Below, in pieces: positions 8,765-55,949 of a stretch of 64,000 nucleotides of DNA. This DNA is from Emticicia sp. BO119 (lineage in GTDB: Bacteria > Bacteroidota > Bacteroidia > Cytophagales > Spirosomataceae). The notes under the pieces are model-generated. The model ran no database searches. It was not told where the DNA came from and saw only the letters and a program-made list of their open reading frames with translations. The stretch's first letter is position 1. The number at the start of each line of letters is the position of its first letter. The position numbers were made by a program, and so were the translations under genes. The stretch spans positions 372,001 through 436,000 of the forward strand of contig NZ_JACETV010000003.1 in assembly GCF_013912375.1 (NCBI RefSeq), given 5' to 3'.

Positions 8765-8792
8765 ATCGATATATATTTAAAGATATATCGCT
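8765..8792. promoter_or_regulatory. Candidate ModE operator
   Basis: Inverted repeat with arms ATCGATATAT (8765-8774) and ATATATCGCT (8783-8792), nine of ten positions complementary, around an 8-base A/T spacer. It resembles the CG.TATAT-type half-sites bound by ModE proteins. It lies between the modE-like gene end and the peroxidase start, in the expected promoter region of the peroxidase operon. No binding data. Confidence 0.6.
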
Positions 8793-8835
8793 AAGATAAT
8801 GAAAAAACTGAAGTATGAAATTCGTTAAAATAAGA

Positions 8836-15207: not shown

Positions 15208-15390
15208 TTACGAAAGCGCGCGTCCGATGTTATTGAGAACAGCATTCAGTTTCTGTTTTTCCTGCTCCGGAATATCTAATGATTCGATTTTTTTGGTGAT
15301 AGGAGAAATAGCCAATTGTTTCCAGTCTACTTTTAGTGCTTTGGCGATATTGATTGTTAGGCGGAAGGTGGGTTTTCTGATGCCTGTTTT
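15208..15390 (-). pseudogene. Truncated duplicate of the Xre-type HTH gene
   Basis: From 15390 down, the minus strand encodes GIRKPTFRLTINIAKALKVDWK and a tail that closely parallels the HTH gene at 14709. The first two helices of the domain, including the recognition helix, are missing: similarity stops at about 15390, where the hicA promoter sequence begins. The breakpoint suggests that insertion of the hicAB cassette removed the 5' half of this copy. Confidence 0.65.
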
Positions 15391-15471
15391 AAAAGTCACA
15401 AAAAAGTGCCAAAAAGTTCGCATATATGACGCAAATTTGCGACCTTTACTTTGTACTTTGCACACCTAAAA

Positions 15472-30081: not shown

Positions 30082-33000
30082 ATGGCAAGAACAAACCTCA
30101 AAGGAACTCAGGTTTTGGATGGTTCTGTCAGCAGAGCTGACCTGAACACCACTGTTTCGGGCAGTGCGGTCATTACCAAAATAATCACCACTAACGGTGT
30201 AGCCATGACTGCCTATACCGGAGCAGATAGTGGCACTGGTGATGTAACTGTGGCTGCCGATTTATCATTTTTAGACACTAAATACCCTTCCATCACAACA
30301 AGCCGAACACAGAATCAAGTGCTTGCTGCTCCGGCATCTGGCAATGGGGTGGCTTCGTTCCGGGCTTTGGTAGCGGGGGATATTCCTGTAATCGGGATTT
30401 CGGGAGTAACGGGTTTACAAACTAATTTAGATAACAAATGGGCTTTAGGGGGAAACTCTCTCTCAAATACAGGAGTAATAGGTAGCAGCACCGACCAAAA
30501 TATCCAGTTAGTAAGAAATTCGGTTGCTGGTCTTACTTTAAAAGTTGACGGCATTACAGATGTTAAGAAGCTGGCTGTAGGTCGTATCAGTGGCTATGGT
30601 GGGAATTCATGGGATAGCCTTGCAGTTTTTGGAGGAAATGTAACTATTGGCGGGAAAGATTCAGCTACGCAAGGGAGTTATGATCTGAATTTAGTAGCTT
30701 ATACTACTAACGACAATCCGGGCAATGCCACCCGAAAAGCCCGCATAAAATTCGGATACTATGATGCAGCCAACTTTGTAGATAAATTCAAACGGACAAT
30801 CGAATACTGGCGTACAAATGATGCCATTGTTATTGGTTCGCACAGTACGCTTATTACCGATACAGCTACTACTTCACCTATAGAAGGCAATTCTGTTTAT
30901 TTCGGTTCAGACGGAAGCGTAGGTATTGCAAGCTCGGCATTGACAGCATCTTCATTAAAAATAAGCAAGATTATAACCGGTGACGGGCAGGATTCAGGAT
31001 ATGGTATCCTGAACAATGGGGTGGTTCAGTCAGATATTACAGTTACGGCTTACTATAATAATACTTTTGCCAGCACAGTGGCATCAGGTTCGGCCTATAC
31101 TATACCGGCAATCATTCATTATTCAGCCAGACAACTGGCATTTGGAAACAATAGTAGTGTAAGTAATCAATTTGCTTTTTATGCAGATTCTACTCTAACA
31201 GGTGCTACCAATAATTATTCGTTTTATGGAGCACTGGCAGCAGGGGGTGGTCGTTGGAATGTATATATGGCAGGAAGTGCCAACAATTATTTTAATGGTA
31301 ATGTCTGGATTGGCACTAATACGGGTAATTATAAGCTTGACGTAAACGGAACAGGTCATTTCAGCCAGGATGTAACCTTTGAGGCTAATGCTGTTCTGTC
31401 CGCTGCTCCAACTTCTGGAAGTCATCTTGTGAATAAAACTTATGCTGACACAAAACTTTCAGGAACTGGCACTACTAACTATTTAGCCAAATACAGCGGA
31501 AGTGGCACATTAGGCAATAGCAGTATATACGATAACGGGGGCTTGGTAGGCATCGGAACTACTTCGCCAAGCACCAGATTATCATTAGGAACATTCTGGA
31601 GTACTGGTGCCGAAACAGTAGGTATTAACCTCAGGGAGGGTTCACTTGCAGGAGAGCTTCCAGCTTATGGTATTGGTTTTGGTCCGGCAAGTTCAGAAGG
31701 CTATGTAACCTATCGCTCAGGCACAAGTAGCAATAGTCTCTTTGGGCATAAGTTTTTTGTCAATAATACAGAAGTGATGCGGGTAAGGGGGGATGGGAAT
31801 CTTGGTATAGGCACAAACTCGCCTATCTACAGATTAGATGTAAATGGCAATGCCCGACTGACCTCTAACCTGATTATTTCCGGGAGCATATCAAATGGTA
31901 ATACAATTGCTTATTTTGATAACAATAATACAAATGCTGGACAGAGCTTCGGTTTATTAGTTGATGCCGGAACTTCTACAAGTGACTACGTTTTAAAACT
32001 AAGAAATGCTTCCTCTACAGAGATGCTGATATTCAACGGAGCAGGTAGTTTAGGCATTGGTGGCAGTGGAACACTCATTACCGGTAGCACGTTGACACTC
32101 GCCAAATCATTTAGTAGTTCTACTTCTTACGGTATTTATAGCTATGGACAAATCACAAGCTCCAACACAGGAAATGCCTATTACTATCGCTCTTTAGCTA
32201 ATACCCAAGCGGCCAGTTTTACTGTTGGTACTATAGCCCACTATTCAGTAGCACAAGGAACAATAGGAGCGAATAGTTCAGTAACCAATCAATATGGTTT
32301 TCTGGTTGAAAGCACTATGACAGGGGCAAACAACAATTATGGATTTTACGGTACCCTACCAAATGGTAATTGGAATCTTTATATGTCAGGTACGGGAAGC
32401 AATTTTCTGAATGGGCGATTAGGTATTGGGTCAAATATTTTAGTTGACAGAAATCTTCAACTGGTTTTACCCATTACAGGAGGTACCACTGCTTATGGCA
32501 TGATCAGCAATGGACAGGTGCAATCTGGCGTAACTTTCAATGCTTATCAGTACTTCTCACAAGCAAATGCTGCGGCAGATGTGACTCTGACTAACTTTTC
32601 TCATTATACTGCTGTATATGGAAGCATCAATGGTAGTATTACCAACCAGAATGGTTTTTATGTTCCATCATTAATAGGTGCGACCAATAATTATGCATTC
32701 AGGGGAGGTGTAACAAACGCAACTGGTGCCTGGAATCTCTATATGGATGGTTCTGCTAACAATTACTTAGGAGGTAAAATAGGGGTAGGTACCCTTTCAT
32801 TAGCAGATAAGAACTTTGCTTTAGATTTACCACTTTCATCGAGTTCTCCTTATAGTTTTATTAATACCGGAACGGTTCAAACAAATGCATCAAATGTATT
32901 TATGAACTACTCTCAGGCAAATGTTGCAACAGGAGCGAACGCCTCTTCACTTTATCATTTTGTATCTTCACAAGCAGCTTTATCAGGAACTATAGGAAAT

Positions 33001-35118
33001 CAGTATGGTTTTTTTGCCAGTTCAGCTCTAACAGGTGGGACTAACAACTATGGTTTTTATGGAAACCTCCCTGCAGGAGCAGGACTTTGGAATCTATATA
33101 TGAATAGTAATGCAAATAATTATATAGGGGGAAGATTAGGGATTGGAAGTACTTCTCTTAGCAATGTCTCCCTTAAAGTGACAAATAATATTTCTGGAAG
33201 TGGAACTTCTATTGGTATTTGGAGTGATGGGCAAATTCAATCGGACGTTTCCACTGTGTACTATTTCCGCTCTAGTTCTAATACTCAAAATGCATTTTTT
33301 ACAATCTCAGATATTTATCATTATGGGGTTGTACAAGGGGTTTTCGGAGCAAATTCAATTGTAAATAATCAGATAGGTTTTTACGTAGGAAATTTAACGG
33401 GAGGCAATACTAACATTGCTATTCGCACACAAGTTACAGCTGGTTTTAATAAATGGAACATTTATATAGATGGTACTGCTAACAACTATTTGGCAGGGAA
33501 TCTTTGGATAGGAACTAACACAGGAGGCTTTAAACTTGATGTCAATGGAAATGCGCGCTTTACCCAAGAGGTACAATTTAATAATTATGCAATATGTGAT
33601 GCTGCTCCAACTGATGCAAGCCACTTAACCAATAAAGCTTATGTAGATAGTTTGTCTTCCATTAAGCGGGGTGAGTCAGTAAAAACTATTGCTTTAACAA
33701 ACATTAGTCTTTCAGGTACACAAACCATTAATGGGGTATCTTTAATAGCTGGTGATTTAATATTAGTAGCCGGGCAAACAAGCTCAAGCCAGAACGGAGT
33801 ATATACTGTGACGGCAGGCACATGGAGCAGAAGTTCCAATAATGATTCTGAGAACGAAATCAAAGGGGCTTATCACCTTATTACTGCAGGCTCTTACGCT
33901 AATCAGCGGTATATCAATACCAATAGTTCGTCTATTACCCTTGGGACTACAGCAATTACTTATGCATTAGATTTTGGCGCAGAAACTGATCCTGTTTGGA
34001 ATGCTTATAAGACCTTATATGACATATCTCCAACCCGCATCAGTCAATGGAATAGTGCTTATTCAATTGCCTCCAGCTTAACAACTACTAACGCCCTTGC
34101 AGAAGGCGGAAGCAATTTATATTTCACAACCTCACGTGTATTAGCTACTGCTTTGACGGGCTATTTGGTTGGTGCTAATACTTCATTATCCGCTACAGAT
34201 ACTGTTTTGCAGGCCTTTCAGAAAGTGCAAGGACAATTAAATAACCGATTGCTAATAGGAGGAAATATAATGGGTTTTGCAATCACTATGGGCACTATTG
34301 ATAATTTTGACCTCTCACTAAAAAGATATAATTCTACACATTTGACACTTCAAAATGGCGTTTCAAAGTTCTTTTTTGATGTTGATATAGTTGGAAAAAT
34401 CAAATTGAATGAAAACACTGGTTCAGATCACCAGTTTATCAAATATAATGGTAGCTCCAACGAATGGGCATACCTGAATACTGGTGAACTTCAGGATAAA
34501 AATAATATTGTAATGCTTGAGGATATTGCTGGTGAAAGAGGATTTCAGCTCTTCAGCGATTCTGCTAAAACTTATGCTGACGCTTTTGTTTTTACTAATT
34601 CAATTGCCGGAATAGCTCTTGGGATACATGGCTATTCAACAGATTCATCGGATATTATTCAGGAATTTGGTTTGCAACTCGACGTAGATGGGTATCTCTA
34701 TCACAAACGTTTGGATGGAGTTCGTTCACGTATTGCTACTGTTGATATGATTAATGGTAGTGGAGGCGGAAATTGGAATGGTGGTTTCGTAAGTAATAGT
34801 GTTGAAATGCCTATTGATAAATATATCTTATGGGATACAGCAGGAAATAATCTGAATCCCTCATCCATTGGATTCAGGAAGATGCCGCTCACCTCACCAG
34901 TTGAAAAAGCACTTCAGATTTATAGCAATGCAAATATGTATATTAATGCTGCAGGTGAACTGAATATCACTTCTAATAGACTATTATTTACAAAAGACCT
35001 GTATCCTGTAGAAATAGATTTTAGTGGAGCTTACTCCCTACCTGACGGGCACTACGCAAGGTTTTTAGTATCATCAACCACCGGAGGCATAAAAAAACTA
35101 ACAATAATTTCAGATTAA
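30082..35118 (+). CDS. Large tail fibre protein
   Basis: A 1678-residue fibre. The N-terminus (ARTNLKGTQVLDGSVSRADL) is a fibre-attachment segment. Then an array of about six repeats of roughly 100-130 residues, each with a pattern such as NNYGFYGTLPNGNWNLYMSG and GRLGIGS, rich in N, G, S and T. Near residue 1190 lies the fibre domain NISLSGTQTINGVSLIAGD, also found in the preceding protein. C-terminus is RFLVSSTTGGIKKL. It probably forms the long side or tip fibre. Repeats differ, and variation in them could change host range. Confidence 0.75.
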   Translation: MARTNLKGTQVLDGSVSRADLNTTVSGSAVITKIITTNGVAMTAYTGADSGTGDVTVAADLSFLDTKYPSITTSRTQNQVLAAPASGNGVASFRALVAGDIPVIGISGVTGLQTNLDNKWALGGNSLSNTGVIGSSTDQNIQLVRNSVAGLTLKVDGITDVKKLAVGRISGYGGNSWDSLAVFGGNVTIGGKDSATQGSYDLNLVAYTTNDNPGNATRKARIKFGYYDAANFVDKFKRTIEYWRTNDAIVIGSHSTLITDTATTSPIEGNSVYFGSDGSVGIASSALTASSLKISKIITGDGQDSGYGILNNGVVQSDITVTAYYNNTFASTVASGSAYTIPAIIHYSARQLAFGNNSSVSNQFAFYADSTLTGATNNYSFYGALAAGGGRWNVYMAGSANNYFNGNVWIGTNTGNYKLDVNGTGHFSQDVTFEANAVLSAAPTSGSHLVNKTYADTKLSGTGTTNYLAKYSGSGTLGNSSIYDNGGLVGIGTTSPSTRLSLGTFWSTGAETVGINLREGSLAGELPAYGIGFGPASSEGYVTYRSGTSSNSLFGHKFFVNNTEVMRVRGDGNLGIGTNSPIYRLDVNGNARLTSNLIISGSISNGNTIAYFDNNNTNAGQSFGLLVDAGTSTSDYVLKLRNASSTEMLIFNGAGSLGIGGSGTLITGSTLTLAKSFSSSTSYGIYSYGQITSSNTGNAYYYRSLANTQAASFTVGTIAHYSVAQGTIGANSSVTNQYGFLVESTMTGANNNYGFYGTLPNGNWNLYMSGTGSNFLNGRLGIGSNILVDRNLQLVLPITGGTTAYGMISNGQVQSGVTFNAYQYFSQANAAADVTLTNFSHYTAVYGSINGSITNQNGFYVPSLIGATNNYAFRGGVTNATGAWNLYMDGSANNYLGGKIGVGTLSLADKNFALDLPLSSSSPYSFINTGTVQTNASNVFMNYSQANVATGANASSLYHFVSSQAALSGTIGNQYGFFASSALTGGTNNYGFYGNLPAGAGLWNLYMNSNANNYIGGRLGIGSTSLSNVSLKVTNNISGSGTSIGIWSDGQIQSDVSTVYYFRSSSNTQNAFFTISDIYHYGVVQGVFGANSIVNNQIGFYVGNLTGGNTNIAIRTQVTAGFNKWNIYIDGTANNYLAGNLWIGTNTGGFKLDVNGNARFTQEVQFNNYAICDAAPTDASHLTNKAYVDSLSSIKRGESVKTIALTNISLSGTQTINGVSLIAGDLILVAGQTSSSQNGVYTVTAGTWSRSSNNDSENEIKGAYHLITAGSYANQRYINTNSSSITLGTTAITYALDFGAETDPVWNAYKTLYDISPTRISQWNSAYSIASSLTTTNALAEGGSNLYFTTSRVLATALTGYLVGANTSLSATDTVLQAFQKVQGQLNNRLLIGGNIMGFAITMGTIDNFDLSLKRYNSTHLTLQNGVSKFFFDVDIVGKIKLNENTGSDHQFIKYNGSSNEWAYLNTGELQDKNNIVMLEDIAGERGFQLFSDSAKTYADAFVFTNSIAGIALGIHGYSTDSSDIIQEFGLQLDVDGYLYHKRLDGVRSRIATVDMINGSGGGNWNGGFVSNSVEMPIDKYILWDTAGNNLNPSSIGFRKMPLTSPVEKALQIYSNANMYINAAGELNITSNRLLFTKDLYPVEIDFSGAYSLPDGHYARFLVSSTTGGIKKLTIISD

Positions 35119-40994: not shown

Positions 40995-41291
40995 CTAATC
41001 TTTATATGGAATCACCTTAATAAGTTGTAGTCTATTTAGTTCTTCAACATCCCTTTTATTTTCAGGCGGAACAATACCGTTACGAATCCAATCTTCAACA
41101 ATCTGTTGATCGGCAATGCCAAAATGCTCGCAGTAACGCTTTACAGTAAACCATTTTTCAGGTATATACTCAATGCCTTTTGATTTCAGGTAATCAACTA
41201 CCTGATCCCTAAGTGCAACCCCTTCCATTATTATTTCTTCAAATGTCTTACCATCAAATATCGCTTCTTTGTTTTGCATGATATGATTCAT
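40995..41291 (-). CDS. Small HTH-like protein of the accessory region
   Basis: A 98-residue protein. KWFTVKRYCEHFGIADQQIVEDWIRNGIV reads as a MerR/excisionase-type winged helix (sequence V-K-x-Y-C-x-x-F-G followed by W-I-R-x-G), which suggests a DNA-binding role. Start could also be the internal ATG at 41279. It sits between the late operon terminator and unknown membrane genes. Could be a phage excisionase-like protein although no integrase is near. Confidence 0.5.
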   Translation of the reverse strand: MNHIMQNKEAIFDGKTFEEIIMEGVALRDQVVDYLKSKGIEYIPEKWFTVKRYCEHFGIADQQIVEDWIRNGIVPPENKRDVEELNRLQLIKVIPYKD

Positions 41292-41462: not shown

Positions 41463-41867
41463 TCAACTAATCTCCCGCTTAATAATCGAGCACTTTTCAA
41501 AAAGTTCTGATTGTTCGAAAGCTTTCAGTAAGGTATCGGCATTTTTTTTATTCATGGTTTTTAGTTTGCGGATATTAATCAACAATTCATCGTCTGATAA
41601 ACTGTTCCACCAGGCGATACATTTTTCCCATCGTTTATTAGAGACCGGTATTTCTACTGGTGGTAAATAAAAATTATCAATCGAAGAGGTTCTGATGGCT
41701 GTTAGAGTACAGATAAATAGAAAAGCGATAACTGCAACCTGTACACTCCATTCAAAATACTTACCTTCAAAAGCAAAATACGAACAAGTAGCAAAGCAGG
41801 TGCAAATCAGATAAGAATACAAAATCGTATCTGACGGTTTTTTGGATATATTGTCTGTTTTCATCAT
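41463..41867 (-). CDS. Hypothetical membrane protein
   Basis: A 134-residue protein with two hydrophobic segments at about residues 17-60 (ILYSYLICTCFATCSYFAFEG and WSVQVAVIAFLFICTLTAIRT). The C-terminal half is soluble and Trp/Lys-rich (SNKRWEKCIAWWNSLSDDE). No family recognised. It is followed downstream by a short hairpin AAGCAG/CTGCTT near 41410. Confidence 0.5.
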   Translation of the reverse strand: MMKTDNISKKPSDTILYSYLICTCFATCSYFAFEGKYFEWSVQVAVIAFLFICTLTAIRTSSIDNFYLPPVEIPVSNKRWEKCIAWWNSLSDDELLINIRKLKTMNKKNADTLLKAFEQSELFEKCSIIKREIS

Positions 41868-41999: not shown

Positions 42000-42518
42000 T
42001 TAATTTCTTCTTTTTAATTGCCCGAATGCTTTAACCGAACCATTACTATAGAAAATTATTATCTTCAACTGGTCTCTGTTAGCAGAAAAATAATTATTCA
42101 AACTTAAGTTGAAGTAACGCCTTGCGTCTTTTGAGACTAATATATTATTAGGATCTTCTGCTTTTGTGGTGGTGTATATAACTTTTTCGGCACCTACAAG
42201 TAGCTTGGGTGAATTGAGACTTACAGAGGTACTGACATTTGATAAACTAATTGTATATTTAAGTTCTTCTGAACATGAATTAGTCAAAACATATATTTCT
42301 TCTTTTAGTGATGATTTCTGGATAGTAGAAAAGGCCTCTTTATTGGCTATCCTGTTTACCATACCGACCAGAGGCTTGCTTCCTCCATTTGTTATGGCTA
42401 ATGACCCAAAGCCAAGACCTGAGATCAGAATTACAGAATAAAAGCTTTTCAGATAGCCTTTGAATCTTATCTTTCCGATAGCTTGTTCAGCATGTACATT
42501 TGGTTGGTTTGATTCCAT
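42000..42518 (-). CDS. Hypothetical single-pass membrane protein
   Basis: A 172-residue protein with one membrane segment at about residues 23-43 (SFYSVILISGLGFGSLAITNGG) and a beta-rich outer part (KYTISLSNVSTSVSLNSPKLL, VIYTTTKAEDPNN, LKIIIFYSNGSVKAFGQLK). No known domain was recognised. It belongs to the accessory region after the phage lysis genes and has no visible partner. Confidence 0.5.
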   Translation of the reverse strand: MESNQPNVHAEQAIGKIRFKGYLKSFYSVILISGLGFGSLAITNGGSKPLVGMVNRIANKEAFSTIQKSSLKEEIYVLTNSCSEELKYTISLSNVSTSVSLNSPKLLVGAEKVIYTTTKAEDPNNILVSKDARRYFNLSLNNYFSANRDQLKIIIFYSNGSVKAFGQLKRRN

Positions 42519-42897
42519 GATGTAGTTGTTTAAAATCTGGTGATTTATTATTATTTGTTTTAAGATACTTAAATAATAACTATTCTGTTAAATAATTTTA
42601 TTCTAAGGTACCTGTGGTATCATGATGGACTGAGTTTAATAAGACCTAATGTGCCGAAGAGCAGACTTTTGAGTACAAACAGCTAAAAACATTTATAATC
42701 ACTAAGAAACTATAGGTGACTCATTAAACTGATTAAAAAACTCCTGGTGGGCATTAATGTATATTTATTGAAGTTCGTTGTTTGAACTTTGATTTATCTG
42801 ACTAAACTGATACCTGAGAGTTAATTCATTCTGAATTAGAATAAAGTTTCGGTTTATCTCCATGTTATCCACAAATCCGGTAAATCAAGGTTCATTT
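42519..42897. other. Intergenic region, no gene seen
   Basis: 379 AT-rich bases between a minus-strand membrane protein gene and the HxlR gene; no ORF or strong structure noted. Confidence 0.5.
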
Positions 42898-43236
42898 TTA
42901 CCTCCCCATCACCTGCTTGCGGTGTAGTAAGCCCCAGTAGTGGAGTTCTTCCAGTACTTTTTCCAGAGATAAGCCGTGTTCGGTAATGGTGTATTCAACC
43001 GTCGGCGGAAAAGTATCATGCACAGTGCGTTTGATGAGTTCGTTGGTTTCGAGGTTCTTTAGTTCTCTTGAAAGTGTTTTATCAGTTATGCCATTTACTT
43101 CTTTGGCTATTTGCTTAAACCGCTTTGGCCCAGTTGATAAAGCAAATAATATCAGTAATTTCCATTTGCCTTCCAGTGCTTCAAGCGCATCTTTTATCGA
43201 AAGCATGGTTTTGGGGCAAGTGCCATTTGTGAGCAT
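42898..43236 (-). CDS. HxlR family transcriptional regulator
   Basis: A 112-residue winged-helix regulator. CPKTMLSIKDALEALEGKWKLLILFALSTG is the family signature (with the early Cys of CP that can sense oxidants or aldehydes), followed by RFKQIAKEVNGITDKTLSRELKNLE and RTVHDTFPPTVEYTITEHG. It is divergent from a DoxX gene across 125 bases packed with six GATAG half-sites, so it probably represses that gene. Confidence 0.85.
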   Translation of the reverse strand: MLTNGTCPKTMLSIKDALEALEGKWKLLILFALSTGPKRFKQIAKEVNGITDKTLSRELKNLETNELIKRTVHDTFPPTVEYTITEHGLSLEKVLEELHYWGLLHRKQVMGR

Positions 43237-43256
43237 TTTAAGTATCGTTTTATGAT

Positions 43257-43309
43257 GCTATCTTATATGATAGCGCTATCCTAAAGGATAGTACTATCAT
43301 ACGGATAGC
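43257..43309. promoter_or_regulatory. Array of GATAG/CTATC inverted half-sites, candidate HxlR operator
   Basis: Half-sites GCTATC (43257), GATAGC (43269), GCTATCC (43275), GGATAGT (43286), ACTATC (43293) and GGATAGC (43303) form three consecutive inverted repeats in the intergenic space between the divergent HxlR and DoxX genes. Confidence 0.65.
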
Positions 43310-43361
43310 AAAATTACGTAATCTTGCGGCATAATTAAAACAATATAGCATTTGTAGTATT

Positions 43362-43769
43362 ATGACAACCCACCAGACAAACTCTAAGCTCCTGAACATG
43401 ACTTCATGGCTATGCCAAATTTTATTATCCATCACTTTTATTTGGGCGGCAGGTATGAAATGGTTTGAACCTATGGACCAACTTGCTCAAATGTGGCCCT
43501 GGACGGCCGATAACCCCCTACTCACTAAAATCACTGGTGTCTTTGATTTTGCGGCAGGGTTGGGTCTCGTTTTACCTATGGCACTCCTTATCAGACCGGT
43601 ATTGACTCTCTATGCCGCTTGTGGCACTCTGGCACTTATGCTGGCGGCCATTGTTTTCCATGTATCAAGAGGAGAGTCCTCTCAGATTGGTTTTAATGTT
43701 TTTGTATTGCTTATGGCAGGGTTTATTGCCTGGGTGAGGGGTAAGAAAACAATTATTCATAAACAGTAA
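43362..43769 (+). CDS. DoxX family membrane protein
   Basis: A 135-residue protein with four transmembrane segments: WLCQILLSITFIWAAGMKWF, GVFDFAAGLGLVLPMAL, VLTLYAACGTLALMLAAIVF and FNVFVLLMAGFIAWV. The IWAAGMKWFEPMD start of the first loop is typical of DoxX-like proteins. Members can act as terminal-quinol-oxidase-like or redox membrane proteins; here the role is unknown. Regulation by the divergent HxlR protein is likely. Confidence 0.75.
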   Translation: MTTHQTNSKLLNMTSWLCQILLSITFIWAAGMKWFEPMDQLAQMWPWTADNPLLTKITGVFDFAAGLGLVLPMALLIRPVLTLYAACGTLALMLAAIVFHVSRGESSQIGFNVFVLLMAGFIAWVRGKKTIIHKQ

Positions 43770-43790
43770 CTACAAGATAGCCCTCTGGCT

Positions 43791-44432
43791 TTACCCTCGG
43801 TCAAATGATTGCAGCAGTTGTAGAATTGCCTGTGGAGTTACCAATAAATCCATCGTTTCTGGGTGGATAATATTCTTGTTATAGAGCGACAACAAGGTGC
43901 GGTTGAGGCTGCGGGTTGAAATACCAAGATAACCGGCCAGATCGATTTTTCTTAGTTTCAGAGGCTGATTTGAAAACAAATAAACCAGTTTCAGAATAGA
44001 ATATTCGAGCGGATAATTCTGCTGATATGATGCGCGGCTGGCAGTCTGTACTAACCGGGTAGCCAGTACTTTCAGCACCAATTCATTAAAATTCCAGTTT
44101 TTTTGTAGCATTTCCATAAAATAACTGCTGGGTATTTTATAGACCTTTAGGTCAGTAATACTCACTACATTCGACAGGCTTGTTGTTTTATTCAGAATTT
44201 CAAGTTCGCCTATAATCTCACCTTCACCCAGAAACTCCAGTATAAAATCTTTTCCGTTGTTTTCAGTAATATAACACTTAACAACCCCACTCTTAAGTAT
44301 ATACACATAAAATAACTTTTCGTTTTGCAGAATAATGTTCTCGTCTGGCGCATAGTTTTTTTCAATAATACCCTTCTCAGTTTTAGCCAGTTCAGAAATC
44401 AGCTTCAGTAAATCATTGTTGTAGCGTATCAT
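43791..44432 (-). CDS. Crp/Fnr family transcriptional regulator
   Basis: A 213-residue protein. The beta-roll is seen in APDENIILQNEKLFYVYILKSGVVKCYIT and FLGEGEIIGELEIL, with the G-E-x-x-G-E motif near residues 68-75. The helix-turn-helix is KIDLAGYLGISTRSLNRTLLSLYNKNII. It resembles Fnr-like regulators lacking the cysteine cluster, so the effector is unknown. It is convergent with DoxX and divergent from the adenosine deaminase gene. Confidence 0.85.
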   Translation of the reverse strand: MIRYNNDLLKLISELAKTEKGIIEKNYAPDENIILQNEKLFYVYILKSGVVKCYITENNGKDFILEFLGEGEIIGELEILNKTTSLSNVVSITDLKVYKIPSSYFMEMLQKNWNFNELVLKVLATRLVQTASRASYQQNYPLEYSILKLVYLFSNQPLKLRKIDLAGYLGISTRSLNRTLLSLYNKNIIHPETMDLLVTPQAILQLLQSFDRG

Positions 44433-44669
44433 TTTTTGAGGGTCGGGACAAATGTCCTTTTAATGCTTTTCAAATACCAAGACCTTTGTATTATTGAATA
44501 GCAAATATAGAAAAATGCGGTGTTTTTTATTGGTTCCTGCACTCTATAAAAATCAGCTATGATAAAGGCTATAAGGGAAGCCTCTGAAGAAAATTCCTGA
44601 ATTATGTTAAAACCTTTTATTAAAATGTTGAAAACCTTTGTTTCTATCGCAGGGTACATGATTTTACCT

Positions 44670-45677
44670 ATGCTAAGCGTAAAAAAAACTGATTATGCCC
44701 GATTACCAAAAGTTGAATTACACCTGCACCTCGATTGTTCGTTGAGCTATGAGGTTGTGAATCAGATTGCGCCTGAGATAAGTTATACCGATTATCAGCA
44801 ATCATTTATTGCTCCGCCCAAATGCAGCAACCTTGCCGATTATATCAAACGGGCAATGAAAAGCCTTGAAATAATGCAAACCAGAGAGCAGCTCAGGTTA
44901 GTAACTTTAGACCTGATGCAACGGTTGAAAAAAGACAATGTACTATATGCTGAAATACGATTTGCACCGCTGCTCCATACCGAAAAAGGACTGGCTCCAG
45001 ACGAGGTTGTGAGGGCAGTAGATGAGGCTGTAAAAGAGGGAACTGCCTTAACTGGTGTTGAAGCCGGAATTATTCTTTGCACACTCAGGCATTATACGGC
45101 TCAACAAAGTATGCAGACAGTAAAACTGGTTGAAGCGTTCAGAGGAACCAATGTGGCAGGGTTTGATATAGCAGCCGATGAGGCCGGATATCCTATTGAT
45201 AATCATGTTGAAGCATTTGTTTATGCCAGAGAAAAGCAACTGAATGTAACAGCACACGCCGGAGAAGCCAAAGGGCCTGAGAGCGTGTGGGAAACACTAA
45301 AACATCTGCGTCCGTCGCGAATCGGGCATGGCGTAAGAAGCATTGAAGATCCTGAGTTGATTCAGTTTCTGAAAAAGGAAGATATACATTTAGAGATATG
45401 CCCCACAAGCAATGTACAGACCAACGTAATTGACAATATTGCACAGCACCCGGCCGATAAAATCTATAAAAGTGGTGTTTCTATGAGTATTAACACCGAT
45501 GCCAGAGCCATATCTAATGTTACATTGTCAGACGAATACCAGACACTGGAGCGATTATTCGGCTGGAGAAAAGATGATTTTCTTCATTGTAACCTGGAAG
45601 CCCTTAAACACGCTTTTATCCCGGAAGAGAAGAAAATTCAACTGCGGAAAAAACTGCTTGCAGGCTATCAGGAGTAA
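44670..45677 (+). CDS. add: Adenosine deaminase
   Basis: A 335-residue TIM-barrel deaminase. Zinc and catalytic residues are visible: VELHLHLDCS (His-x-His), TAHAGEA (metal/acid region), GHGVR and a late SINTDARAIS that replaces the usual NTDDP. Additional features are CPTSNVQT and VTLSDEY. ATG 44670 was chosen because the family starts just before the YARLPKVELHLHL motif; earlier ATGs (44604, 44658) would add 4-22 hydrophobic residues. It hydrolyses adenosine or a related purine nucleoside. It is convergent with the response regulator gene. Confidence 0.85.
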   Translation: MLSVKKTDYARLPKVELHLHLDCSLSYEVVNQIAPEISYTDYQQSFIAPPKCSNLADYIKRAMKSLEIMQTREQLRLVTLDLMQRLKKDNVLYAEIRFAPLLHTEKGLAPDEVVRAVDEAVKEGTALTGVEAGIILCTLRHYTAQQSMQTVKLVEAFRGTNVAGFDIAADEAGYPIDNHVEAFVYAREKQLNVTAHAGEAKGPESVWETLKHLRPSRIGHGVRSIEDPELIQFLKKEDIHLEICPTSNVQTNVIDNIAQHPADKIYKSGVSMSINTDARAISNVTLSDEYQTLERLFGWRKDDFLHCNLEALKHAFIPEEKKIQLRKKLLAGYQE

Positions 45678-45748
45678 TATGAGCTACTACTGGCGAAAAG
45701 CCGGAAATCTGTTACATTTAACGGGTCGGCATACAGATTTTAAAAAAT

Positions 45749-45776
45749 AACCGTGTCATCTATAAAAGACACGGTT
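45749..45776. terminator. Bidirectional terminator hairpin
   Basis: AACCGTGTC (45749-45757) and GACACGGTT (45768-45776) pair perfectly, flanked by TAAAAAA; it lies between the convergent adenosine deaminase and response regulator genes. Confidence 0.75.
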
Positions 45777-45794
45777 GATAGATAGCAAACAGGT

Positions 45795-46223
45795 TTAATT
45801 TTGTGTATTGTTTGAGTGTTTACACAAGGCCCAATAGTCGAGTATGGTCTGAATATTTCTCTTCATGGTTTTAAAATCTGTACTTTTCTGCACATAGCCT
45901 TGTACATTGAGTTGCAGATAAGCTTCGTTCACTAATTCAGACTGGTCAGACGTGGTATAGAAAACAAAAGGGATACTTTTTTTTCTGAGCTTCTCATCAG
46001 CCTGTATTTCTCTTTTCAGTTCTATACCTGTTTGTTTGGGCAGATTAATGTCACACAAAATCAAGAATGGAATCTCGTTTGTTGCAAACAGGTAATCTCT
46101 TGCTTCTTCGCAGTCATCAAACCATATTAAAGGGTGTTTTACTTCTAATGCAGAAAAAGCATCTTCAAGAAAGATTTTATCATCAACATCGTCTTCAATC
46201 AATATTACTGGTCTTTTATCCAT
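45795..46223 (-). CDS. Single-domain response regulator (CheY-like)
   Basis: A 142-residue receiver domain. The acid pair is in VILIEDDVDD (residues about 8-14), the phospho-acceptor Asp in LILCDINLP near residue 58, the Thr/Ser position in FVFYTTSDQSE and the conserved Lys in VQGYVQKS. There is no output domain, so it probably acts through protein contacts. No cognate kinase gene is nearby. Confidence 0.85.
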   Translation of the reverse strand: MDKRPVILIEDDVDDKIFLEDAFSALEVKHPLIWFDDCEEARDYLFATNEIPFLILCDINLPKQTGIELKREIQADEKLRKKSIPFVFYTTSDQSELVNEAYLQLNVQGYVQKSTDFKTMKRNIQTILDYWALCKHSNNTQN

Positions 46224-46814
46224 ATAATTTTCTAATTGGTTGCATCAAACATTAACCAATATACGGGTAAATTGTTTTTCGGATTGGGAAAAATCAGGGG
46301 TTCTAACCATGTTTTGGTATTATTCTCTGTGCTGATCGGGATAAATCAAGTTAGAGCATTCTAACTATTAACAAAACGTTTTGCCCATGCACGCTTCTCA
46401 TAACAACACAATGTTTTGTCTGGTCACTCATCATTGTGGGGTTTCTTCTTTTAAACAGGCTATCTTCAGGCCACCACTTCTTCCCTATTTCGGATAAACG
46501 TTGCATCGTAACTACACTAACCGATAATTCGGGCTGTTATCCGGGAAAATCACGACATTAAACAACTTTAGCAGGCGGCTGGCGGCGGCTTCTGAAAATA
46601 CTATTTATTAAACCCGTTGGGTGAAATTATTTAAAGAATTTAATATATCGTCCCTACGGGACTTTGCTTCTAATTTTGTTAATTTTTTCTACCGATATAT
46701 TATCCCTACGGGATATTTTTTAGTCCCGTAGGGACGATATATCGGTAGTAGAAATAAGCTTTCGCAACAAAATGTATCCCGTAGGGATAATATACTTTAA
46801 TTTCACCCAACGAG
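46224..46814. other. Intergenic region with a loader-gene fragment and a MITE
   Basis: 591 bases without an intact gene between two minus-strand genes. It contains the fragment 46512-46596 and the MITE 46612-46815, both listed separately. The rest, 46224-46511, shows no clear feature. Confidence 0.6.
46512..46596 (-). pseudogene. 3' end remnant of a helicase-loader gene
   Basis: 85 bases that match the last 28 codons, including the stop, of the loader gene at 49049-50032 (49049-49133) with two mismatches: a silent TTG/TTA change and a GCG/GTG change in the last codon (Ala to Val). 78 bases (46519-46596 and 49056-49133) are identical. The frame is preserved and ends in TAG. It lies just downstream of the 703-residue surface protein gene. 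Confidence 0.8.
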
Positions 46815-46815
46815 T
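46612..46815. repeat. MITE with 18-bp terminal inverted repeats and 10-bp target duplication
   Basis: Left end ACCCGTTGGGTGAAATTA (46612-46629) and right end (46798-46815), reverse complements at 17 of 18 positions. Direct repeats TATTTATTAA lie exactly outside at 46602-46611 and 46816-46825. Internal palindromes of the type TCCCTACGGGA recur three or four times. The element has no coding capacity, and its right end supplies the last base of the surface-protein stop codon. Confidence 0.85.
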
Positions 46816-48926
46816 TATTTATTAAGGTTTAATATGTTGAGTTTAGTACCTATCGGTGAGCTGAAAACTGCTCCCGTTTTAATGAGAATAGTATTAGATT
46901 CGGCGTTCAGGTCTGGTGGCAGTATAATGGCATGTCCCTCATTGATAATTACATCATTTAAACTGGTAGGTGTGCATTCGCATGACCATACTAAAGGATT
47001 GTTCCAATCCCCTGAGTTTATGCTATAAACAGGAATAGGGAATGAATTACTATTTGAAAGGTTGGTCTGGGATTTCAATTCTCTTTCATCACTGAATCCA
47101 TCATTGTCAGAATCCTTTGATAATGGATTACTACCAATTATAGTCTCAAATAAATCTAACACACCATCATAATCGAGGTCAGAAGTCTCTGCATCATTTT
47201 TTACGTTCGGATTTAAACCTATCCTTGATTCAAATGAATTAACAATATAATCGCTATCATTATCCAAATCATAAATGGCAAATTGCCCAAACCCGATCAT
47301 ATCATTATTTTGTGCATACACGAATATTACCAGTCGGTCATTAATGATTGGTTGTGTCGTCGATTTTATCTTTAAAAGTCCATTAGAGGAAATTGTAGCA
47401 ACTGTCGTATCCACGCTAAGTATATAAGTTGTACCAGATGAGCCTGGGGTAACATCAATTGTATTGTTAGTATCGTCTACAAAAATGGTTCTAAGTTGAT
47501 AGCTATTACCTACTTGAACAAAGAAATTAGTATCGGCAGTTATTTTCAGCTTGCTTGCATTAAATAATTCAGTTGAAAACAATTCTTGCTTACTTGGTGG
47601 AGGCGAAAAAATATTCTCGGGTAATATGTCAATATTACTTATATTTTGCTGTTGAATTTGTTTTGAGTAAGCGAGCCTCAGTCTTATCATAATTTGTGCT
47701 TCGGTTCTCAATCTACTTGCCCCATCTACAATATTCAGTTTTAAACCCCATCTTTTAAACGCAGACCAAACGTCATCTCCAGTAAAAATTTCATCTACAC
47801 AAGCCTCAACTGCATTTGTCAAAAACTGTTGATGTTGATGAGTCCAGTTTGCTATTTCCTCCTCAGTATTTACATTGTAATTAAAAAAGGATGGCCTTAG
47901 TTCTTTTTCAAAATGATAGTCGCCTAATTCGCTAAGGCAATCCAGTTTTTGTAAATATGGTGCAGGTGTACATTCTTTATCCATACCTGATACACACGGG
48001 CTCTGTGTAGCCATATTATCAAAAAGGTGCTTCACAAATCCACCTCCCCAGCCATTATCACCTGATTTATTATATTCATTAGCTGATTTATCATATATAC
48101 AGGTAAATTGCTTCCTATATAAAAATTCTGGTTTATTTATACTTTCATTCAGTTTTCTTTGCAGGTAATTTGCATATTCAGAGGAGTAAGCTGCATCTTT
48201 TGGTTTGAAATAATTAGCAGGTTTTACCGGGTTGCTCCATTTTTCAGGATAATTGCATCTGGGCTGATTACACCTTACTTTATATTCATTACAACTACCC
48301 GTGTCGAAAATATAGTAAATGTTATTAATATAAGTTGAGTTGCTTAAAGCTGATTGCCAGATAATAGACTCATCTTCCCTACAACCATTAACCTGTAATG
48401 CTATGGCATTAGAAGACGTACCCGGATATTTTGTTGAATAGCCCGAGATTTCTGCGGTTTGTGTCAGTGGAATAATATTAACCTGCCTTGTAGTACCTGA
48501 ATACCGTGTAGTTTTCTTATAAGCTCCCCTGCATTTATTAGCAGGAAAAAACTCTATACTTTCCCATTTTACGGAATAAACGCCAGCTGAATTTGGCCTT
48601 GCATATACAACATTTCGGTTTGCAGGGTCATATCTTATACCCTCTCCACTCCATACCAATGATGTGTTTTCTTCCTGATAATCAACACTTAAATTATAAT
48701 AGGCAATACAATCATCAAAATTAGCCCATTTATAATGGGTATTAGTGGTAGATATGGATACATTATTGAGTCTGATTTCTATTTCTTCTCCTGTGCAAAT
48801 CTGGGCATTATATGCCAGACCAACCAACTGTATATTTGAAGAAATATCATAGTTTACTACTTCATCCTGGGCATTTGTGCGTACAATATTGCTTAATAGT
48901 ATTAATACCAGTATAAATATTTTCAT
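46815..48926 (-). CDS. Secreted surface protein with TSP3-type calcium-binding repeats
   Basis: A 703-residue protein with a signal peptide (MKIFILVLILLSNIVRTNAQ). A long N-terminal part has Ig-like features and a Cys-rich region (KYNCPE-like, EYKVRCNQPRCNYPEK). Residues about 480-560 look like an Ig-like fold. Then come EF-hand-like or thrombospondin type 3 repeats with DLDNDSDYIVNSFES, DLDYDGVLDLFE and DSDNDGFSDERE (about residues 555-635). The C-terminus contains a GDW.NPL.WSC.CTPT...D pattern seen in Cytophagales surface proteins. It lies in the phage early region but has no phage counterpart, so it is probably cargo. Confidence 0.75.
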   Translation of the reverse strand: MKIFILVLILLSNIVRTNAQDEVVNYDISSNIQLVGLAYNAQICTGEEIEIRLNNVSISTTNTHYKWANFDDCIAYYNLSVDYQEENTSLVWSGEGIRYDPANRNVVYARPNSAGVYSVKWESIEFFPANKCRGAYKKTTRYSGTTRQVNIIPLTQTAEISGYSTKYPGTSSNAIALQVNGCREDESIIWQSALSNSTYINNIYYIFDTGSCNEYKVRCNQPRCNYPEKWSNPVKPANYFKPKDAAYSSEYANYLQRKLNESINKPEFLYRKQFTCIYDKSANEYNKSGDNGWGGGFVKHLFDNMATQSPCVSGMDKECTPAPYLQKLDCLSELGDYHFEKELRPSFFNYNVNTEEEIANWTHQHQQFLTNAVEACVDEIFTGDDVWSAFKRWGLKLNIVDGASRLRTEAQIMIRLRLAYSKQIQQQNISNIDILPENIFSPPPSKQELFSTELFNASKLKITADTNFFVQVGNSYQLRTIFVDDTNNTIDVTPGSSGTTYILSVDTTVATISSNGLLKIKSTTQPIINDRLVIFVYAQNNDMIGFGQFAIYDLDNDSDYIVNSFESRIGLNPNVKNDAETSDLDYDGVLDLFETIIGSNPLSKDSDNDGFSDERELKSQTNLSNSNSFPIPVYSINSGDWNNPLVWSCECTPTSLNDVIINEGHAIILPPDLNAESNTILIKTGAVFSSPIGTKLNILNLNK

Positions 48927-49048
48927 TTTACATTTTTCAATTTATCCTTTAAATAAGTACAACATTAATCATTTTTATAGTAAGATAGCAAGGAAATTTA
49001 TTTTAAGGCATATATAAATAAATATAACCCAAACCTATTCTTTACACC

Positions 49049-50032
49049 CTACGCCAACCGATAATTCGGGCTGTTATCCGGGAAAATCACGACATTAAAC
49101 AACTTTAGCAGGCGGCTGGCGGCGGCTTCTGAATAGGTCCTGGTCAGATCTTCGTAGCTTGTGGCGTTGGTGATGAGGTGCAGGCGGCGGGGATTTTTAT
49201 AGAGCCTGAAAATGTATTCTTCTATAAAGTTGATATGCGTGGAGGAGAAAGAAGCTCCTTTGGCCAATACGCTCCTTTCCTCACGCCCTACTTCGTCGAT
49301 ACAGATGTCGTAAGACTCATGGCCGAATTTGTTGCGTTTGTCGGAGATATAAAAGTAGTTGAAGGCCATGTCTCCGGCTTCTTTGTAGGCCTGCACCATA
49401 TCCTGCGCCTCAACGATTCGGAATGAGGCAAAGGGGTTGTTCTGAAAGGCCTGCATCATAGAGGTTTTGCGGCAACCCACCGGCCCCATAATTAAAAACC
49501 CTTTGCGGGTATCGATCCCTTCATAAAGGTTACGACCATAAAAGTACTCTAAAAACATACGTAATTCTGCTTCACAGTACTGGTCAATAGCAAATTGCGC
49601 CCGGGCATCCTCCTGTGTTACAATAGACCGCCATTTGGCTATTATTATGTTTTTAAATTCATCAAAACTCAGTTGTAAGGGTTTCATGGCTTCTAATCGT
49701 TCTTTTTCGGCGGCTTCGTACCGGCGGCGTTCTTCTGCTTTTTTCTGCTCGTCTACTGTGCAGGCTACCTGATAATAGAAGTTTCCGGCAAAATCGTGCG
49801 CTAATGCTTCAAACATTCTGTCAAGCAAGGTTGCGTCTACCTTATGTAACCTTGCTTCCTCTGTAAAGAGAGTTTTCAGGTGTGGCAGCAGGGTATCAGA
49901 CAGGCGTTTCTTCTTTTCCGAAAATATTTTTGCGTATGGGGTTTCCGCCAATGCTTCTTGGTTTTTCAAGGAATGGTTTCGCAGTTCTCGATGTTGCGGC
50001 GGCTGTGGCAGATTTATTTCCTGGTCTTGCAT
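49049..50032 (-). CDS. DnaC-like helicase-loader ATPase
   Basis: A 327-residue AAA+ type protein. Walker A reads GPVGCRKTS near residue 184, where the Gly before Lys is replaced by Arg; Walker B is DICIDEVGRE near residue 238. The segment RLHLITNATSYEDLTRTY and the final AASRLLKLFNVVIFPDNSPNYRL match helicase-loader proteins of Bacteroidota prophages. It probably loads the replicative helicase for phage replication. The start overlaps the upstream replication gene by 137 bases. A fragment of its 3' end is repeated at 46512-46596. Confidence 0.75.
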   Translation of the reverse strand: MQDQEINLPQPPQHRELRNHSLKNQEALAETPYAKIFSEKKKRLSDTLLPHLKTLFTEEARLHKVDATLLDRMFEALAHDFAGNFYYQVACTVDEQKKAEERRRYEAAEKERLEAMKPLQLSFDEFKNIIIAKWRSIVTQEDARAQFAIDQYCEAELRMFLEYFYGRNLYEGIDTRKGFLIMGPVGCRKTSMMQAFQNNPFASFRIVEAQDMVQAYKEAGDMAFNYFYISDKRNKFGHESYDICIDEVGREERSVLAKGASFSSTHINFIEEYIFRLYKNPRRLHLITNATSYEDLTRTYSEAAASRLLKLFNVVIFPDNSPNYRLA

Positions 50033-50795
50033 GGTTATGAATGATTTCGTTGTTCCATCGTTTCTGATTCAGGTAGGTTTCCAGATTAGCTCTGTATTTT
50101 TTGTCGGGTGTTGAGCGTACATAGTCTGGTATATGCTGCCACGCCAGCCATTTTTCTTTATAGCTGAGCGCATTCCATTTTTTTTCGCAGCGTTGGCGGT
50201 CGCCTATTTTTTTATCGTAGGTGTTCCAGATTGTCCTGAAATCTATTGTTTTTTCGTCGGGGCGGCGGTTGCCACAATCCATTCGCTGTTCGGGTCGAGG
50301 GCATACTGTGGGCGGGTTAACGGCATCATCAGATACTATCCCTGTTACTGACACTTCGGTTCCGGCTGTTTCTCTGTTTAATGGTTTTTTTAATTCTTTA
50401 CTTTCTTGTTTATCTATCCTATTAATGCTTTGAGAGATGCTTTCAACCTGCTTTGGTGTGTGAATCGTCAGTGCTTTATCTAATGCTTTGTCGGTTGCAT
50501 TGTCAGATACTGACAGGGCAATAATTGTAGAGGTGTACTGGTTTTTGCTCTCCTGCAATACAGCAATAAAACCCCAGTCAATCAGTTGATTAAATACTTT
50601 TTTATAAGTTTTGTAAGAGCGGATACTCAGCACTTCCATTGCTTCTGAGGTGGGGAGTCCGAATTTATCTTTCTGCCCAAGCCTGTTCCATTTTTCTACC
50701 ACCCACATAAACAGGGCTGTATGCAGAGGTGTGTTGAGATCGGGATTTTCGAAGGCCCAGTCAAACCAGCGTCTTGTTAAGTTATAACCGTTCAT
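49896..50795 (-). CDS. Phage replication protein, DnaD/initiator-like
   Basis: A 299-residue protein. The N-terminus (NGYNLTRRWFDWAFENPDL to EVLSIRSYKTYKKVFNQLIDWGFIAVL) is a winged-helix DNA-binding domain typical of replication proteins of Bacteroidota phages, followed by a polar linker and a C-terminal KKIGDRQRCEKKWNALSYKEKWLAWQHI domain. ATG 50795 is preferred as start; the 50843 version begins in a repeat-rich leader. It precedes the helicase-loader gene and overlaps it. Confidence 0.7.
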   Translation of the reverse strand: MNGYNLTRRWFDWAFENPDLNTPLHTALFMWVVEKWNRLGQKDKFGLPTSEAMEVLSIRSYKTYKKVFNQLIDWGFIAVLQESKNQYTSTIIALSVSDNATDKALDKALTIHTPKQVESISQSINRIDKQESKELKKPLNRETAGTEVSVTGIVSDDAVNPPTVCPRPEQRMDCGNRRPDEKTIDFRTIWNTYDKKIGDRQRCEKKWNALSYKEKWLAWQHIPDYVRSTPDKKYRANLETYLNQKRWNNEIIHNHARPGNKSATAAATSRTAKPFLEKPRSIGGNPIRKNIFGKEETPV

Positions 50796-50878
50796 AGTGA
50801 ATGAGTGAATGGTAAATAGTGAATGAATGTATTGCTGTAACAATATGATCCGTGATTATTTTTTCGTAATGCCTAAAA

Positions 50879-51669: not shown

Positions 51670-51751
51670 TTTTTTTGTTTGATTTGTACTAAAATACAGA
51701 TGTGTCATTGAACTGTACAAATGTATGGCACTTTTATACAAAAATCAATAA

Positions 51752-51774
51752 ATTGTACAAAATATTTGCACAAT
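51752..51774. promoter_or_regulatory. Candidate repressor/Cro operator
   Basis: A 23-base palindrome with arms ATTGT.CAAA and TTTG.ACAAT, only the central bases of the arms differing, 20 bases upstream of the repressor start. Related half-sites TTGTAC and GTACAA occur at about 51683-51720 closer to the Cro-like gene. Confidence 0.6.
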
Positions 51775-51792
51775 TTATGCGCATCTATACCA

Positions 51793-52578
51793 ATGAAAAC
51801 CCAAAATGTTGATAATAAGGTGATTAACCTTATTGATTTTCAGAAAAAGCAACGCCTTAAAACTGAGGAGGTTGCTACAGGATTAGGGATTTCGACGAGC
51901 CTGTTGTACAAATTGTATAAGGGTGAACGGAACCTGACAGATGAGCTTGTGGAAAAAATTCAGACATTTATGCTTGGGTTTGGTTTGCAGGCAACAGGCC
52001 GGAATGAGCGGGTAAGAAAGCTCAGGATTGAGCGCAATGCCGTTGATAGCCTTGAGGTGTCGATGGACGAGAATGACCTCATTGAGGAATATATAAATAC
52101 ACACGGAAACCGTTTTACGAGAGTAGACGACGAAATAATTATTGAAGTGCCTTTGCTGAACCATGAAGCCTATGCGCGGTATCTGGACGAAATCTCGGAA
52201 GCCCGCATCTATGAAAGTGAGAAATTAGTATCGTTTGTGGTCGAGAAATTCGACACAGCGTTTCATTTAGCCTTTAAAGTATATGGAGATTCGATGAATG
52301 GTGGCCGCCTGACGGACACACCCGACAAAGCTATTGTGCTGGGCCGTGAAGTAGAAAAAAGTGGCTGGTTTGACGGCGGACTGAAAATTGACAAATATGG
52401 CTATGGCTGGGTGATACTGACCGAGCGCAATATTCTGTTTAAAGATATTGTATCGTTTGATAAATCAAGCGGCATCATCACCTGTCACTCCCGCAACCCC
52501 AGCCCGGAGTATTCTGATTTTGAGTTATCGCTGGGAGAAGTGCATCAGATTTTTAAGGTTTTGAGGCGGATATTCTGA
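51793..52578 (+). CDS. Phage repressor with S24/LexA-like domain
   Basis: A 261-residue protein. N-terminal helix-turn-helix: RLKTEEVATGLGISTSLLYKLYKG near residues 22-45. C-terminal S24-type serine protease domain: catalytic Ser in FKVYGDSMNGG near residue 170 and the probable Lys in ILFKDI near residue 220. This is the architecture of CI-type repressors that can be inactivated through a RecA-stimulated self-cleavage, though a cleavage site was not identified. ATG 51793 was chosen over 51721 because it starts the domain. It is divergent from the Cro-like gene. Confidence 0.85.
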   Translation: MKTQNVDNKVINLIDFQKKQRLKTEEVATGLGISTSLLYKLYKGERNLTDELVEKIQTFMLGFGLQATGRNERVRKLRIERNAVDSLEVSMDENDLIEEYINTHGNRFTRVDDEIIIEVPLLNHEAYARYLDEISEARIYESEKLVSFVVEKFDTAFHLAFKVYGDSMNGGRLTDTPDKAIVLGREVEKSGWFDGGLKIDKYGYGWVILTERNILFKDIVSFDKSSGIITCHSRNPSPEYSDFELSLGEVHQIFKVLRRIF

Positions 52579-54964: not shown

Positions 54965-55423
54965 TCATTTGAATATCCGCTTGTCAAACGGAAACTTCTC
55001 AATTGCAGTAATAGCAATTTTAACAAAATCTTTGTGGTTGGGGTTGATGAGTACATTAAAGTCTCCCTGCGTAACAACCGAAGGTATCATTAAAACACAA
55101 TATTTGTTTTCCAATACAATGTCGTCACCGAATTTCTGGGTGGAGGCAGGGTGAGGAAAATCTTTCCAGTTGGGTGGTAAATCAGACTCCTGCACTTGTG
55201 TAAAAGCTACTTCATCAGGAATATTGATGCTAATCATCACGTAATCATCTGGCAGGGTAGCCAATGTAAAATGGACTGCCACTTCTGCCATAGCCAACGA
55301 TCGGTTTTCGGCTGTATAAATCAATTCAATTCCAGTCGAATTCCATCTTGCCCCTTTAATAGCGGCTCCTTTTCCTGACAACGGACTTGCATATTTCTCT
55401 CTTGAAAGTCTGTACACCTCCAT
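54965..55423 (-). CDS. RES domain toxin (NAD+-degrading)
   Basis: A 152-residue RES-type domain: VYRLSREKYASPLSGKGAAIKGARWNSTG at the N-terminus carries the typical R, R and S positions; MAEVAVHFTL and VTQGDFNVLINPNHKDF are the later family blocks. RES toxins degrade NAD+ and arrest growth. It lies one base after the Xre-type partner gene (stop at 55425, start at 55423), so the two form one operon. Confidence 0.85.
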   Translation of the reverse strand: MEVYRLSREKYASPLSGKGAAIKGARWNSTGIELIYTAENRSLAMAEVAVHFTLATLPDDYVMISINIPDEVAFTQVQESDLPPNWKDFPHPASTQKFGDDIVLENKYCVLMIPSVVTQGDFNVLINPNHKDFVKIAITAIEKFPFDKRIFK

Positions 55424-55424
55424 A

Positions 55425-55949
55425 TTATACCAATATTCCGTGGTTAATATGAATTAATTCACTCATTACAAGGTCTTTTCCGTAAGAATCTTTTAGTAGT
55501 TCAATAGGTTTTAAACTACCTAAAGCATAATTGGGGGTATTGAGCCAGAGCCGGAGTTTCTCCATATTGCCAAAAACCTCCAACCCCATCTTAGTGACCT
55601 CGGCCACTTCAATTATTTTCTCTGAGTGAATCGACTTGAAAGAGTAATTCTCTGCCGATTTGTATCGATGTAATGATTTGGTTGAAATATCCAGAAAATC
55701 TGCCCAGTCGTTTTCTGTCAGAGGGGTATAATCCTGAATCAGATCAAAGAGGGAATAAGGTATGCCCGTTCTTATGGCAAAGATGATAAGCATCTTGTCG
55801 GACAGGAAATCTTCATAAGTAATAGACTTGACCTTAACGGGCGATTGCCGTAGGAATGAAGTAATTTCTTTATCCAGTTTATGTTCGATAGTTGATTTTG
55901 CAGTTACCATAACAGGCTGTTCGGACATTTGTCTGTAAATATAGGACAA
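55425..55949 (-). CDS. Xre/ParS-type antitoxin (DUF2384)
   Basis: A 174-residue protein. It has the mixed helical region IRTGIPYSLFDLIQDYTPLTEND, a central EIIEVAEVTKMGLEVFGNMEKLRLWL helix block typical of the DUF2384 (MbcA/ParS/Xre antitoxin) family, and a C-terminal GSLKPIELLKDSYGK segment. It neutralises the RES toxin encoded directly downstream. The operon order antitoxin then toxin is typical. Confidence 0.8.
   Translation of the reverse strand: MSYIYRQMSEQPVMVTAKSTIEHKLDKEITSFLRQSPVKVKSITYEDFLSDKMLIIFAIRTGIPYSLFDLIQDYTPLTENDWADFLDISTKSLHRYKSAENYSFKSIHSEKIIEVAEVTKMGLEVFGNMEKLRLWLNTPNYALGSLKPIELLKDSYGKDLVMSELIHINHGILV

Follow-up and report, generated by a model that had tools for sequence, protein, structure and literature searches.

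How did a gene for a putative cell-surface protein come to stand behind a phage replication gene, enclosed by two copies of that gene's end? The question is raised by a 64,000-nucleotide stretch of the genome of Emticicia sp. BO119 (contig NZ_JACETV010000003.1, positions 372,001 to 436,000 of the forward strand), referred to here as the window and numbered from its first base. Within it, an intact gene for a DnaC-like helicase loader is followed by the surface-protein gene and then by a detached duplicate of the loader's last 28 codons. We compared this locus with the rest of its own genome (G000), with its closest relative in our searches, Emticicia sp. C21 (G001, of the same genus), and with other relative genomes, including G002, G006, G008 and G027.

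The duplicated loader end and the gene it encloses

The intact loader gene lies on the minus strand at 49049-50032 and encodes 327 aa, with matches to PHROG 50 (E 1.7e-7) and PHROG 3277 (E 1.1e-5) and a nucleotide-binding motif, GPVGCRKT, recognised by eye. Its last 85 bases form what we call copy B (49049-49133, minus strand). Copy A (46512-46596, also minus strand) comprises the same 28 codons including the stop, without any 5' part of the gene; it is in direct orientation to copy B, also 85 nt long, 2537 bases away from start to start, and identical at 83/85 positions. In the direction of the gene there are no mismatches in the first 78 bases, and the two that occur, TTA/TTG (Leu, silent) and GTG/GCG (Val/Ala), stand right before a shared TAG stop. 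The second copy, its coordinates and the two changes had been described in an earlier sequence-only reading of the window and are borne out here, as is the position of the surface gene between the two copies.

Outward of copies A and B the DNA on either side is unrelated. If two changes fell at random among 85 sites, both would lie in the last seven with a probability of 0.006 (0.012 for either end), and at least five of the last seven bases would match by chance between the copies with a probability of 0.013; the homology therefore probably extends to the stop codon. The last few codons of the loader vary among relatives too, in the very region of the mismatches. Taken together, the terminal mismatches and the different downstream DNA resemble two alleles, and less a copy that drifted later. 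The duplication also looks recent relative to the split from Emticicia sp. C21, since the copies differ from each other at 0/78 bases and from the loader of that species at 10/78 each. Nor is the repeat a common genomic element, which would have spoken against the sequence-only reading: a query of 46480-46630 found only two places at E <= 0.001 in the 28 contigs of its own genome, the second with E 2.2e-35.

The surface-protein gene (46815-48926, minus strand, 703 aa) is the sole long open reading frame (ORF) between the copies. It encodes a signal peptide by eye, a bacterial TSP3 repeat and a C-terminal 'GDWNNPxxWSC' domain, and has a GC content of 35% vs 46% for the loader. The idea that the gene was truncated at the junction found no support, as 13 of the 14 related proteins tested likewise carry this domain at the C-terminus; the stretch from where the domain hit begins to the stop measures 62-77 residues in these 13 and 326 in the 14th, compared with 71 in the window. 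The gene appears complete. Matches to the protein occur in 26 of 98 relative genomes. Among the matches listed, only that in G027 is long (41% over 526 residues), and the remaining ones outside its own genome span no more than about 150 residues, almost always close to the C-terminus. The relative in G027 is surrounded by host genes. Searches of phages, plasmids and viral contigs gave no relative of the protein, in collections that may lack entries from this genome itself or from very close ones.

Between the surface gene and copy A we also found a dispersed inverted-repeat element of about 210 bp (46609-46822) that resembles a miniature inverted-repeat transposable element (MITE), flanked by the 9-bp repeat ATTTATTAA; the sequence-only reading had made no mention of it. 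A 7,266-base query against the genus gave at least 16 matches in its own genome, at least 52 in Emticicia sp. C21 and at least 71 in G008, and among the matches listed most fall within this element. A clear 10-bp flanking repeat was seen at one of three other copies compared. Because of these 9-bp and 10-bp flanking repeats, the element is probably a separate, later MITE-like insertion. By eye, with the element removed, the stop of the surface gene would fall a few bases short of copy A.

Flank A, from copy A to the response-regulator region (46283-46511), had no relatives in the genus search apart from one weak 29-bp match (E 0.003) in locus L044. Flank B is an AT-rich spacer (48927-49048; 21% GC) between the loader stop and the surface gene. 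The two flanks do not match each other, so a tandem duplication of the loader end together with its downstream DNA was rejected.

A phage-derived region in two Emticicia species

In Emticicia sp. C21 the same prophage occupies the same place in the chromosome, with syntenic genes on both sides. Its loader protein is the closest that we found (81% identical), and the gene is followed by 307 bp and then by a 134-aa phage-region ORF, which has no family match and which in the window lies at 41463-41867 (minus strand). The 133 bases beside the window's 134-aa ORF align to the C21 spacer with a score of 34.5, compared with a maximum of 30.5 in 200 shuffles, whereas flanks A and B align to that spacer no better than shuffles do. 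Relative to Emticicia sp. C21 the window thus holds about 7 kb of extra DNA (about 42.0-49.05 kb), made up of seven genes (the surface gene plus six more, several of host type), flanks A and B, copy A and the dispersed element. The six lie between the 134-aa ORF and copy A (42000-46223) and encode a 172-aa product with no family match, an HxlR regulator, DoxX, a Crp-type regulator, an adenosine deaminase and a response regulator. The sequence-only reading had proposed to look for an empty site. In Emticicia sp. C21 the loader end does run on continuously, but the whole of 42.0-49.05 kb differs there and not the surface gene alone.

Several of these genes have their counterparts elsewhere. In Emticicia sp. 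C21 the HxlR-DoxX pair is inverted and at the opposite side of the replication module, and the response regulator is near the portal gene. In a 20-kb stretch of G008, HxlR-DoxX adjoins homologues of the window genes at 1875-2165 and 7082-9180, and the same stretch has no match to the window's phage ORFs; the Crp-type regulator and adenosine deaminase genes are adjacent in G006. Host and phage blocks are ordered differently in the BO119 genome, Emticicia sp. C21 and G008. Judging from these gene orders, host-type genes have been shuffled with the phage region. For this reason a gain in the window rather than a loss in Emticicia sp. C21 is likely, not proven, at the loader junction. Small response-regulator genes adjoin phage modules in both species, at L044 16958-17374 (after the terminase), at 45795-46223 beside copy A and at C23:560748-561176 of Emticicia sp. 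C21 (near the portal gene).

The sequence-only reading had concluded that the surface gene became phage cargo, and this claim found no support. The terminase lies 3.2-5.3 kb to the left of the window and 15 kb from the portal gene, with largely host-type genes in between and one ORF that matches phage endolysins; in Emticicia sp. C21 the terminase-portal distance is 26 kb and the order is conserved. In both species the terminase, portal, head/tail/lysis and replication modules are interspersed with host-type genes, and site and order are shared (window -5316 to 52578; C23:518665-593292 in Emticicia sp. C21). Since no tyrosine integrase is near, host-type genes separate the phage modules and the collections of phages, plasmids and viral contigs gave no relative of the surface protein, transfer of its gene as phage cargo is unproven.

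The phage genes compared between the two Emticicia species keep open frames. We set up 13 phage and 7 host-type gene pairs, of which 12 and 7 were aligned. The dN/dS ratio was 0.019-0.200 in ten phage pairs and 0.027-0.103 in five host-type pairs; dS could not be computed in 4 of the 19 aligned pairs and exceeded 1 in several others, which makes these values rough. The major capsid protein was matched in 4 of 58 genomes, in two of them at 28-33% identity only. The cluster may be old, phage-derived and vertically inherited.

The replication module also contains a phage replication-initiation-type gene upstream of the loader (49896-50801, minus strand; PHROG 270, E 1.3e-8); a Pfam search gave zero matches for the loader and for this neighbour. 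At the module's outer end is a CI-like repressor (51721-52578, plus strand; PHROG 11451, E 0.0011 when scanned from 51787) that is 82% identical in Emticicia sp. C21. Just beyond the module, a gene pair of RES-domain and Xre/MbcA/ParS type (54965-55949) is likely to be a toxin-antitoxin module, and PADLOC gives no match for it. Two other direct-repeat families of at least 40 nt were found in the window (seed 14), and blastn adds a weaker one at 71%. Between the portal and protease genes, the 3' part of an XRE-type regulator gene occurs as two incomplete copies (14740-14893 and 15239-15392) that are 84% identical, and Emticicia sp. C21 holds a similar pair (C23:549802-549979 and 550625-550813); this could possibly be an older scar of the same kind as the loader-end repeat. 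A 71% repeat over 126 nt (31165-31290 and 32998-33123) lies within a 1678-aa tail-type ORF.

How the second loader end may have arisen

We favour, with about even confidence, recombination with a very similar loader allele, by a single crossover or by homology-facilitated illegitimate recombination, through which the surface gene would have been inserted without a dedicated mobile element. Recombination with a second allele, one of the two alternatives of the sequence-only reading, fits best because the homology stops at the stop codon and both mismatches lie in the last seven bases, where loader C-termini vary. Donor DNA carrying such an allele with the surface gene downstream would have undergone exchange with the resident loader. 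In one version, a piece of the donor that had been trimmed and circularised would have integrated through one RecA-type crossover within the 85-bp homology; in the other, homologous exchange at one end would have been combined with illegitimate joining at the other. Both routes would end with the loader intact, the new DNA behind it and, next to the old downstream DNA, a partial duplicate of the loader end, so that copy A would be the remaining 3' end of the resident gene; the dispersed element would have inserted beside it afterwards. RecA-type exchange needs some tens of bases of homology, and the uninterrupted homology of 78 bases between copies A and B is sufficient. We infer the donor, its order of loader and surface gene, the crossover and the direction of change.

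Two bodies of published work describe comparable outcomes. In E. coli, PCR gave a product for partial duplication of the lacZ end in 56 of 60 Lac- clones, and 14 sequenced duplications of 109-950 bp were attributed to a single crossover of a circular molecule short of part of the homologous end (PMC3240628). As in the window, foreign DNA lies there between the complete end of a gene and a partial copy of that end, and no integrase is needed. Unlike those duplications, which arose under laboratory selection, the one described here measures 85 bp and is in a natural genome, and its donor was not found. Homology-facilitated illegitimate recombination has also been proposed for arrays of type VI secretion system (T6SS) immunity genes in Vibrio, with their orphan immunity genes, and for orphan Rhs 3' ends (PMC5361080). 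These systems share with the window a conserved anchor, new DNA behind it and an old 3' part orphaned downstream; they differ in that the anchor here is a phage replication gene, and the leftover 28 codons have no evident function.

Several points weigh against recombination with a second allele. No donor with a loader followed by a surface gene was found elsewhere: viral contigs and phage records, searched with the same limit on near genomes, gave no relatives of the loader or of its end, and the single loader relative in genome contigs is without a surface gene. The allele-like clustering of mismatches is thin evidence because only two differing bases underlie it. The presence of HxlR-DoxX elsewhere and inverted in the relative implies several overlapping rearrangements, so that one single event is a simplification. 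Finally, in true homology-facilitated illegitimate recombination some resident DNA is usually lost by deletion (PMC3240628), and we identified no such deletion as part of the event.

The other alternative of the sequence-only reading, insertion into the gene end with restoration of that end, fares less well than the allelic one. It would involve a small non-autonomous cassette integrating site-specifically at the loader 3' end, with a recombinase supplied in trans, the 85 bp serving as attachment core and copy B as the element's replacement end. Islands that insert at the 3' end of a gene restore its frame and lie between direct repeats, and here too the gene end is restored, the direct repeat stops at the stop codon and the outer DNA differs on both sides. 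Elements that target gene 3' ends exist, such as SGI1 at trmE (PMC8409611), which shares insertion at a gene end; the window differs in having no tyrosine integrase, and no recurrent element was found here. The tyrosine integrase family PF00589 has 11 matches in the genome, none in the window, and the sole one on this contig is at C22:574117, about 138 kb past the window's right end; serine recombinases were not searched. A second loader end was absent from all four 20-kb loader loci (Emticicia sp. C21, G002, G008 and contig C24 of the BO119 genome), which gave one incidental 21-bp match. Nor was a comparable copy seen in any of 16 loader loci (20 minus the window itself, one with a stop and two weak ones), two of which had incidental matches of 19-22 bp; this test is weak because most of the loci end about 1.5 kb beyond the gene and might not include a copy this distant. 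Copy A has no unusual single-strand fold either (z +0.67, with 149 of 200 shuffles folding equally well or better). We therefore consider cassette integration unlikely. The recombination site of an integron cassette folds as a hairpin, and an integron-type gene cassette was also rejected for lack of a fold. A transposon insertion with target duplication was likewise rejected: no transposase-like ORF was found between the copies by eye or by family search, the only inverted repeats detected are those of the separate element at 46609-46822 and not of the segment ends, and 85 bp far exceeds the usual transposon target duplication. A site associated with tRNA was discarded, as there is no tRNA within the window.

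Two further explanations would require no incoming loader allele. The surface gene might have arrived first, with copy A then laid down in place as a templated patch from the loader end 2.5 kb away during break repair. The copies are indeed nearby and nearly identical, and the region has been rearranged repeatedly, but a random patch need not stop exactly at the stop codon or hold both mismatches in its last seven bases (0.006-0.013), and we regard such copying as improbable. Alternatively, a larger rearrangement that also moved HxlR-DoxX might once have produced two copies of the replication module, one of which then lost all but its last 85 bp. The inversion of HxlR-DoxX across the module in Emticicia sp. 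C21 and the different block arrangements in the three genomes would suit this, but the window showed nothing else left over from a second module and copy A, with 0/78 differences, is too intact for an old remnant; this explanation seems very unlikely. The layout may also be a product of misassembly.

The loader end as a possible landing point

What stands directly behind the loader varies among the five Emticicia loci compared. It is the surface gene in the window and nothing in Emticicia sp. C21, and the other three differ. G008 has a DNA methyltransferase, a GHKL-type ATPase and a receiver-type gene there (L047 5582-10374), the last two labelled by eye; PADLOC matches the methyltransferase only, and the three are possibly a defence set. 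A homologue of the window's 98-aa ORF (40995-41291) comes after this cargo. In G002 the loader is followed by arsenic-resistance-like genes on the opposite strand (L046 7374-9922; label by eye), and in the second prophage of the BO119 genome (contig C24) by a C5-type methyltransferase that PADLOC matches. Phage methyltransferases are common. The second prophage also contains a reverse transcriptase (PHROG 1423) beside two similar small ORFs (L043 6234-8255), which by eye resembles a diversity-generating retroelement.

These contents raise the speculation, which we think quite doubtful, that accessory genes are acquired again and again at the 3' end of the DnaC-like loader gene in the phage-derived clusters of Emticicia, with the 85-bp repeat as the one fresh footprint to reveal how the site is used. 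None of the other four loci has a loader-end repeat within its 20 kb. As the evidence stands, the repeat is the footprint of ordinary recombination in a region with much rearrangement. This nearly undecayed scar points to a way in which a cell-surface gene may enter a prophage region without an integrase of its own. If the loader end were a repeated landing point, this would help to explain how accessory and defence genes build up behind phage replication modules.

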